In this document: piece by piece, positions 31,445 through 31,928 of the stretch
How positions within the stretch are numbered: position 1 is the stretch's first letter
Layout: the number at the start of each line of letters is the position of its first letter
Assembly: GCA_025451235.1 (NCBI GenBank)
Contig: JANWKT010000025.1
Coordinates: 120,201 to 172,186, forward strand
Length of the DNA stretch: 51,986 nt
Direction of reading: 5' to 3'
Source: Flavobacteriales bacterium
Lineage (GTDB): Bacteria; Bacteroidota; Bacteroidia; CAIKAF01
Position numbers and translations under genes: made by a program
The notes under the pieces: generated by a model
Databases searched by the model: none
Seen by the model: only the letters and a program-made list of their open reading frames with translations
Told to the model about the DNA's origin: nothing

Positions 31445-31481
31445 CAAAAAAAGGGGCACACTCGCAAAACGTAGTGTACCC
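31445..31481 (-). terminator. Terminator behind the damaged tRNA-Asp copy
   Basis: On the minus strand GGGTACACT pairs with AGTGTGCCC (one G-T pair) across a ten-base loop, followed by CTTTTTTT. It lies five bases beyond the CCA end of the tRNA fragment, as expected for the original tRNA-Asp terminator. Confidence 0.7.
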
Positions 31482-31485
31482 TCTC

Positions 31486-31545
31486 TGGCGGTCGGGACGG
31501 GGCTCGAACCCGTCCCGGCTCAGCCGGGATGACAGGCATGTATTC
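31486..31545 (-). pseudogene. Damaged partial copy of tRNA-Asp (3' portion)
   Basis: Bases 31486-31512 are identical to the last 27 bases of the intact tRNA-Asp (T-arm, acceptor 3' strand, discriminator, CCA). Bases 31530-31545 are identical to its D-stem/anticodon segment. The 12 bases between them in the real tRNA are replaced by a 17-base perfect palindrome TCCCGGCT-C-AGCCGGGA, which destroys the anticodon stem and variable loop. The 5' acceptor strand and most of the D-arm are missing, so it cannot be a functional tRNA. Confidence 0.85.
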
Positions 31546-31819
31546 AGCCATTTTTTTTGTTTTGGATCAGCCAAAGAAAGTATTCCTTCTTACATTTTTT
31601 CAATGCTTTTTCGCGGATCAATGCTTCTCTTTTGGTAGGATATTCTTCTGTATACACCAACTCCCAAGGTCCTTTCCCTGCGGTATATCTGCTTAAATCT
31701 AAGTTATGATCCTTAACTCTTTTAATAGGATCTTCAGAATATCCTTTATAATAGATATCATGAGAAGCAGAATATATGATGTATACAAAATGACCCATGA
31801 TGGAATTGACATAAAACAT
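31544..31819 (-). CDS. GIY-YIG endonuclease-family protein, inserted directly behind tRNA-Asp
   Basis: The protein has 91 residues from the ATG at 31819 (84 from a second ATG at 31798). It has the small UvrC/SLX1-type GIY-YIG fold: FVYIIYSASHDIYYKGYSEDPIKRVKDHN, in which VYIIYS and YYKGYS correspond to the GIY and YIG strands. The catalytic Arg region (PIKRVKDHN), the YTAGKGPWELVYTEEYPTKREAL segment and the REKALKKCKK helix follow. A perfect AAGGAG lies six bases before the first ATG, inside the tRNA terminator hairpin. The stop codon overlaps the first base of the partial tRNA copy. Longer forms starting inside the tRNA are artefacts. Confidence 0.8.
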   Translation of the reverse strand: MFYVNSIMGHFVYIIYSASHDIYYKGYSEDPIKRVKDHNLDLSRYTAGKGPWELVYTEEYPTKREALIREKALKKCKKEYFLWLIQNKKNG

Positions 31820-31820
31820 C

Positions 31821-31844
31821 AAAAGCTCCTTAAAAGGAGCTTTT
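31821..31844. terminator. tRNA-Asp terminator hairpin that also carries the GIY-YIG ribosome binding site
   Basis: AAAAGCTCCTT and AAGGAGCTTTT are perfect complements with a two-base loop. On the minus strand the 3' arm contains AAGGAG six bases upstream of the GIY-YIG ATG, so folding would hide the ribosome binding site. Confidence 0.7.
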
Positions 31845-31851
31845 GGAAAAT

Positions 31852-31928
31852 TGGCGGTCGGGACGGGGCTCGAACCCGCGACCCCATGCGTGACAGGCAT
31901 GTATTCTAACCAACTGAACTACCCGACC
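31852..31928 (-). tRNA. tRNA-Asp (anticodon GTC)
   Basis: On the minus strand the acceptor stem GGTCGGG pairs with CCCGACC and is followed by discriminator G and an encoded CCA. The anticodon stem CATGC/GCATG encloses a CTGTCAC loop with anticodon GTC. The T-arm is GCGGG-TTCGAGC-CCCGT. All invariant positions appear intact in the 77-base gene. Confidence 0.96.

Follow-up and report, generated by a model that had tools for sequence, protein, structure and literature searches.

Genes and features of the tRNA-Asp locus

The window, i.e. the whole stretch of 51,986 nucleotides that was analysed, carries on its minus strand a small GIY-YIG endonuclease gene enclosed by an intact tRNA-Asp gene and a damaged copy of the same tRNA. 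In minus-strand order, the locus consists of the following features:

31852..31928, minus strand: intact tRNA-Asp (GTC), identified by ARAGORN and Rfam (RF00005, 66.3 bits)
31821..31844, minus strand: terminator-like hairpin AAAAGCTCC-TTTTAA-GGAGCTTTT between the tRNA and the GIY-YIG start codon, from the sequence
31544..31819, minus strand: GIY-YIG endonuclease gene, 91 amino acids (PF01541, 55.4 bits), with the stop codon TGA at 31546-31544
31530..31545, minus strand: damaged tRNA-Asp copy, nt 23-38 (anticodon arm to the A after GTC), a 16-nt exact match to the intact tRNA
31513..31529, minus strand: perfect 17-bp palindrome TCCCGGCTGAGCCGGGA in place of tRNA nt 39-50, from comparison with the intact tRNA-Asp
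31486..31512, minus strand: damaged tRNA-Asp copy, nt 51-77 (T arm, acceptor strand, CCA), unchanged, a 27-nt exact match to the intact tRNA
31454..31481, minus strand: terminator-like hairpin GGGTACACTACG-TTTTG-CGAGTGTGCCC followed by a T run, 3' of the damaged copy, from the sequence

Without its stop codon, the coding frame runs from 31819 to 31547 and encodes the 91 amino acids. The minus-strand order of intact tRNA-Asp, hairpin and 91-residue GIY-YIG gene, as read in the initial annotation, is confirmed by ARAGORN, Rfam and PF01541, and the stop codon does overlap the tRNA fragment, sharing 2 nt with its start. The second tRNA-Asp copy described there is present together with its own terminator, but it is not the simple 3' portion that had been claimed. 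Spanning 31545-31486 as a whole, it starts with 16 nt of the anticodon arm, continues with a hairpin and closes with the 3' third of the tRNA. The longest exact match, 27 nt, stands against a maximum of 11 nt both elsewhere in the window and when the 1-kb flank was shuffled 300 times. The insert, taken as the offset between the 3' ends of the two tRNA-Asp copies, measures 366 bp, in line with the earlier estimate of about 0.4 kb and a single nuclease gene; the GIY-YIG gene is its sole open reading frame with a family match, and no integrase is encoded. A group I intron in the tRNA was rejected as a candidate, as no intron family reached the Rfam gathering threshold and the working tRNA is uninterrupted.

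No second tRNA-Asp was found among the tRNA loci read in the window's genome, leaving 31852..31928 as the single Asp gene found. An empty counterpart of the window site was sought via the neighbouring gene, and none was found, because the same-genus relative is not syntenic there: its homologue of the neighbouring gene adjoins a tRNA-Arg instead. The conclusion of an insertion at the window site therefore rests on analogy. By comparison with the Flavobacterium alleles described below, nt 51-77 of the intact tRNA-Asp may be the copy delivered by the element, while the piece at 31486..31512 would represent the old 3' end, whose displacement is seen in Flavobacterium. The hairpin at 31454..31481 is inferred from the empty Flavobacterium sites to be the putative native tRNA terminator.

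Filled and empty alleles in Flavobacterium

At one tRNA-Asp site in Flavobacterium, the GIY gene is present in some genomes and absent in others. In the empty alleles, the tRNA is immediately followed by the native terminator and then by an AraC gene, with 243-495 bp from the tRNA start to AraC. This distance is 673-1051 bp in the filled alleles, in which the intact tRNA is followed by a different terminator, the GIY gene, the hairpin-bearing copy and then the native 3' flank. The native flank of L267 matches that of L268 over 74 nt at 98.6%, and a second, independent pair (L258 and L271) matches over 74 nt at 98.6% as well. The two filled alleles carry two different native flanks, each with its own matching empty relative, which argues strongly against local tandem duplication. 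At this site, the element is inserted as a unit, the tRNA is restored, and the old 3' end is displaced downstream. Presence is patchy, with a minimum of three changes between the filled and empty states on the flank trees.

An insertion that restores the tRNA at one end and displaces the old 3' end to the other had been proposed from the window alone, with a comparison of empty sites as the check. The Flavobacterium relatives, in which filled and empty alleles occur at the same tRNA-Asp site, support this reading. Of the empty alleles, 13 were read in detail, and none showed a tRNA fragment without the nuclease gene, the pattern that would have refuted this reading. The dN/dS values of the Flavobacterium copies that were compared amount to 0.06-0.19, so the protein is under purifying selection and functional. 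The intact tRNA sequence is the same in filled and empty alleles; hence no sequence-level self-protection is visible, unlike the classical homing expectation.

Most of the Flavobacterium genomes at L256-L276 contain two tandem tRNA-Asp genes, with or without the element. The spacer between them is very variable, at about 0.3-1.4 kb, and is perhaps an older insertion.

Tandem arrays, mini units and non-coding inserts

The element grows in tandem, with arrays of at least 12 units of 360 bp at L177, 10 units of 457 bp at L159, 8 units at L149 and 4 units of 404 bp at L025. Mini units of about 85-180 bp are arranged in tandem upstream of the intact tRNA at L013, L095, L099, L114 and L122. They comprise the promoter region, the tRNA 5' part, a hairpin and the first T-arm strand, and contain no nuclease gene. 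At L165, which belongs to the window's family, several hairpin-bearing tRNA-Asp pieces and terminators are located between the tRNA and the nuclease gene. A tandem run of tRNA-Asp and tRNA-Gly was observed directly upstream of the element-bearing tRNA-Asp at L099 (G315:C12).

Arrays of identical units, such as those of L159 and L177, could also grow by ordinary tandem duplication of a tRNA gene and a resident GIY-YIG gene, one copy having decayed, without any mobility. As an account of the element itself, we consider this exceedingly improbable: the filled alleles have a non-native terminator after the intact tRNA with the native one displaced, the hairpin junctions recur exactly and not as random decay, and the same arrangement is found at many isotypes.

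A second, non-coding type of insert was observed in the window's genome behind four tRNA genes, namely tRNA-Val (L345/L052, C20:32971), tRNA-Pro TGG (L060, C7:221727), tRNA-Pro GGG (L363, C24:101171) and tRNA-Leu TAA (L366, C39:1695). It features a long palindrome with the loop AAGCTYTGCTT. In the Val and Pro-TGG inserts, the last 17-18 tRNA nucleotides, from the T loop onward, occur a second time about 160 nt downstream. The inserts behind these four tRNA genes are possibly non-autonomous tRNA-nested elements. The tRNA-Arg(CCT) of L330 in G001, a genome of the same genus, stands next to the homologue of the window's DUF748-like gene and has a comparable small palindromic insert; the repeat there spans the 3' 17 nt of the tRNA, and the T loop again holds the break, as for Val and Pro.

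Distribution and linkage to tRNA isotypes

Relatives of the window protein at an E value of 1e-8 or better occur in 127 of 395 genomes (32%) of the same class. Loci were pooled from a class-wide search, from nearer relatives, and from a contig scan of named genomes that was seeded by an alignment of the tRNA-Asp subset, and GIY-YIG genes and tRNAs were located in all of them. As this sample was gathered via similarity to the window protein, the proportions hold for that region of sequence space. Restricting the count to loci with a good profile score and excluding those that touch contig ends left 149 loci. A same-strand tRNA is located at most 130 bp upstream of the GIY gene in 99 of these, a tRNA is found only downstream in 16, and an opposite-strand tRNA in 2. 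The adjoining isotypes include Asp, Val, Met, Asn, Ala, Leu, Arg and Phe, and further His, Lys, Gly, Pro, Glu, Gln, Ile and Ser. The initial annotation had described small GIY-YIG genes just behind tRNAs as frequent in Bacteroidota; the arrangement proves far more widespread than was known there.

That annotation had also suggested looking for partial tRNA copies beside tRNA-linked GIY-YIG genes. Such a copy of the adjacent tRNA, within 600 bp, was found for 139 of the 145 GIY hits that have a tRNA within 250 bp, across many isotypes, and a hairpin lies in or beside the partial copy in 133 of the 145. Lower-scoring GIY genes provide an internal control: in the window's own genome, for instance, neither a tRNA nor a tRNA fragment accompanies L001, L002 or L005, and no tRNA adjoins L030, L034 or L035 of the data set.

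Outside Bacteroidota, loci named Patescibacteria, other candidate phyla, Nitrospirota, Aminicenantes and Desulfatiglandales were found, and those from candidate phyla often have their intact tRNA on the downstream side of the GIY gene. The mirrored order of damaged copy, GIY-YIG gene and intact tRNA was observed at L214, L216, L218, L220, L221, L228 and L235, which mostly belong to candidate phyla and unnamed bacteria (L221 is from Nitrospiraceae). Either end can therefore hold the intact tRNA.

The element is linked to the isotype of its tRNA. A tree of 178 proteins requires 52 switches of the neighbouring tRNA isotype, compared to 87-98 in 200 shuffles. When tRNA-Asp was left out and only intact tRNAs were used, 42 isotype changes were counted, against 58-68 in shuffles. 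On this basis, nuclease clades appear to track the tRNA isotype. The tree comes from a short alignment and leaves many forks unresolved, and vertical descent or common ancestry at one locus may contribute to the isotype signal, but the tRNA-Asp clade covers several orders according to the record titles.

The direct repeat of the tRNA 3' half, accompanied by restoration of the tRNA, matches the classical att pattern. A non-autonomous tRNA-integrating element could accordingly be served by a tyrosine recombinase in trans, with the tRNA 3' end as att and the GIY-YIG gene as mere cargo. This origin seems very improbable to us, since the insert lacks an integrase gene, the same nuclease cargo occurs at many isotypes and in many families with the nuclease clade predicting the isotype, and neither hairpin substitutions nor tandem arrays are integrase footprints.

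The GIY-YIG protein and its expression

With a PF01541 score of 55.4 bits against a cut-off of 22.6, the protein belongs to the GIY-YIG superfamily. Residues Y24, G26, R34, H38, E70 and K74 are invariant among 16 relatives and Y13 is nearly so, representing the Tyr-x-Gly/Arg/His/Glu core. An AlphaFold model (pLDDT 89.6) depicts a single GIY-YIG domain, residues 10-78, and one extra helix, the last, extending to residue 89 of 91. A separate DNA-binding domain is absent. Profile comparison yielded E values of 4.5e-16 for 1zg2, 4.5e-8 for SLX1 and 0.01 for I-TevI, and the Foldseek ranking agrees, with UPF0213 (BH0048; 1zg2, 1ywl) first, SLX1 next and I-TevI far behind. Given that its nearest relatives are UPF0213 and SLX1, the protein groups with structure-selective nucleases more than with the known GIY-YIG homing endonucleases.

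The first in-frame ATG lies at a median of 43 nt 3' of the tRNA. Among 110 tRNA-gene gaps of related loci, 97 contain a T5 run and 62 a stem of at least 6 bp, compared to 8 in shuffles. A gap of 43 nt that mostly holds a T5 run makes a promoter of its own unlikely, and we infer that the gene is probably transcribed only through read-through from the tRNA promoter.

Searches for a carrier returned only six unannotated matches from Listeria and Staphylococcus in phage records and only five matches in plasmid records, all at 33-41% identity, and no matches in viral contigs. The annotated plasmid matches are located beside trmN or rsmI, the usual setting of yazA. A phage or plasmid vehicle is therefore unsupported.

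The protein could instead perform a host role at tRNA genes, in the repair of collapsed forks or in defence, so that its linkage would be functional and not selfish. Purifying selection is compatible with such a role, and SLX1 relatives resolve branched DNA. However, presence is patchy (32% of class genomes, with empty sites in close species), arrays are formed, and no defence family model (PADLOC) matched. We regard a host role as improbable.

Hairpins in the partial tRNA copies

Interrupted partial tRNA copies were listed at 181 places, corresponding to 134 distinct inserts. Hairpins constitute 127 of the 134 and are perfect in 99; their stem score was equalled by shuffles in 123 of 2680 trials. 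The insert junctions recur in an isotype-dependent manner. At most loci with tRNA-Asp copies, nt 38 is followed by the hairpin and then by nt 51, and a minority has nt 41 before the hairpin. The hairpin mostly stands in place of nt 26-35 in tRNA-Asn, in place of roughly nt 38-48 in tRNA-Met, and in place of either the anticodon arm or the T loop in tRNA-Val, while in tRNA-Arg it is mostly added with no loss of tRNA. At the same tRNA-Asp junction, different genomes carry TCTCGTCTAGGGACGAGA, TCCCGAGTACTCGGGA and TCTCTACGACCGTAGAGA; the sequence varies and the palindrome is kept. Pairing of the right arm of the window hairpin with the acceptor strand was tried as a candidate and dropped, as it does not generalise to tRNA-Asn or tRNA-Val loci.

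Non-Watson-Crick pairs in the hairpins amount to 14 A-C and 15 G-T, which are small numbers. That A-C is as frequent as G-T fits selection or formation at the level of DNA and not of RNA, and the candidate of RNA-level selection is unsupported by the counts of G-U versus A-C.

Some of the palindromes are dispersed in host genomes. Copies of CCTGCCTGCCGGCAGGCAGG with up to 2 mismatches number 107 in G022, 23 in G049 and 18 in the window's genome, and the reversed control gave zero. TCCGCCNNNGGCGGA is dispersed in some genomes and absent from others, and several hosts have few or no further copies of the queried hairpin family in the rest of the genome.

The places of CCTGCCTGCCGGCAGGCAGG include L247 of G022 and, in the window's genome, C7:81239, C19:3127 and others; it was also seen inside tRNA-Arg copies adjoining GIY-YIG genes. 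A further palindrome, TCCCGGTTNAACCGGGA, is repeated in the window's genome at L039-L049 (e.g. C8:161096, C20:181084, C34:123924), mostly within apparent ordinary intrinsic terminators.

These palindromes could themselves be the target. An SLX1-like nuclease would then recognise them as hairpins or cruciforms and act on the damaged-copy hairpins and on the arms of tRNA genes, which would be targeted because they fold, with dispersed palindromes as by-products, like the REPs of RAYT transposases. We consider this unlikely, although the nearest solved relatives are UPF0213 and SLX1, hairpins dominate the inserts (127 of 134, 99 perfect) with sequences that differ among genomes, the A-C and G-T counts (14 and 15) are as expected for selection on DNA and not RNA, and some hosts contain identical palindromes at dispersed positions (CCTGCCTGCCGGCAGGCAGG 107, 23 and 18 times, controls 0). 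Fidelity to an isotype implies more sequence information than a hairpin provides, the queried hairpin family is scarce or missing elsewhere in several hosts, the TCCCGG palindromes of the window's genome mostly resemble ordinary terminators, and the pair counts are small. Our data do not decide whether the hairpins blind the spare copy to the nuclease, reduce deletion-prone homology or serve as substrate, each of which may apply.

A proposed mechanism of homing into tRNA genes

We postulate, as the reasonably probable explanation, a mobile, self-promoting endonuclease gene that homes into tRNA genes and brings along a tRNA 3' part that keeps the tRNA working; cleavage is untested. Nuclease-driven homing, including DNA cleavage, is inferred, and the tRNA as the cleavage target is an assumption. 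The inserted unit comprises a tRNA 3' part, a terminator, the bare GIY-YIG gene and a tRNA copy that is partial and carries palindromic hairpins. As the Flavobacterium alleles show, it is placed between the 5' and 3' parts of a tRNA gene, its own 3' part completing a working tRNA and the old 3' end being shifted downstream with the native terminator. In the proposed sequence of events, the nuclease would cut or nick a tRNA gene of matching isotype that has not yet been invaded. Homologous recombination with a copy bearing the element, either on incoming DNA or in a neighbouring unit, would then repair the lesion and copy the unit in, and unequal repair between tRNA repeats could build the tandem arrays. 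In what are the least certain steps, the hairpins may replace the part of the spare copy that is recognisable to the nuclease or the host, and may shorten the homology that permits deletion of the element.

Homing finds support in a parallel with the GIY-YIG endonuclease SegB of phage T6, which cuts within tRNA genes and tandemly amplifies tRNA-segB (PMC13096335); this support is by analogy. Against homing, the protein resembles UPF0213 and SLX1 and not I-TevI or Seg, it has no DNA-binding domain with which to read the tRNA sequence, and no phage, viral-contig or clear plasmid carrier was found. Self-protection is a weak point of the homing explanation, and one of three things would have to hold: a target that reaches past the tRNA, an enzyme that reads structure, or very low expression.

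A more far-reaching proposal, which we put forward only tentatively, is a class of integrase-free elements that rely on one structure-selective GIY-YIG domain, for which DNA hairpins act as the signal. Such an element would invade tRNA genes because their arms form hairpins, swap the arms of the spare copy for palindromes, rebuild the tRNA, build arrays, and perhaps seed some of the dispersed palindromes of Bacteroidota.

Novelty and implications

In a full-text literature search, this element type was not found described. Preprints and most subscription journals were outside the search, so the absence of a description is not proof of novelty. The available part of a 2006 survey of the GIY-YIG superfamily contains no mention of such an arrangement. 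A tRNA-nested endonuclease gene is a known kind of element, and there is a fair chance that the hairpin part makes the present one a separate kind. The element is easily missed, because its gene resembles a generic nuclease and its remainder resembles a broken tRNA.

If the homing explanation is right, the element would be among the smallest self-sufficient bacterial mobile elements, at about 0.37 kb with one 91-residue protein, and would exploit essential tRNA genes without destroying them. Its isotype-linked nuclease clades would serve as a natural experiment in site finding by a bare GIY-YIG domain, and some palindromes of Bacteroidota genomes would gain a concrete hypothesis. The element may furthermore account for a class of tRNA pseudogenes and for assembly breaks at tRNA loci.

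Comparison with known systems

UPF0213/YazA proteins (PDB 1zg2, 1ywl) are the closest solved relatives in both sequence and fold, and the window protein belongs to this branch. A difference lies in the lower-scoring GIY genes of our data set, which have no adjoining tRNA. SLX1 has the GIY-YIG core fold in common with the element's protein (E 4.5e-8 by profile), but the 91-residue protein is without the SLX4-binding domain, and SLX1 has no known mobility. Tyrosine-recombinase tRNA islands are alike in their insertion into tRNA genes, the restored 3' end and the displaced copy. In contrast to these islands, the present element has no integrase, measures only 0.37 kb, and features hairpins and nuclease arrays. 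REP/RAYT systems likewise pair a small nuclease gene with short palindromes that are scattered through the genomes of some hosts, yet here the enzyme is GIY-YIG and not HUH/Y1, and the palindromes occupy fixed positions of tRNA copies.

SegB of phages T4 and T6, a free-standing GIY-YIG homing endonuclease, likewise has its gene adjoining tRNA genes (PMC13096335), and the reverse complement of its motif RAWTSGAAC corresponds to GTTCSAWTY, the tRNA T-loop consensus. As for a Seg-type element, presence and absence alternate between alleles, here at the Flavobacterium tRNA-Asp site; the tRNA as cleavage target is assumed, and the separate DNA-binding domain that would follow the catalytic domain is lacking. 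SegB is phage-borne, whereas the present element is chromosomal and isotype-linked and encodes 91 amino acids with a bare UPF0213/SLX1-like domain. Unlike SegB, it rebuilds the tRNA 3' part and places hairpins into the spare tRNA copy.
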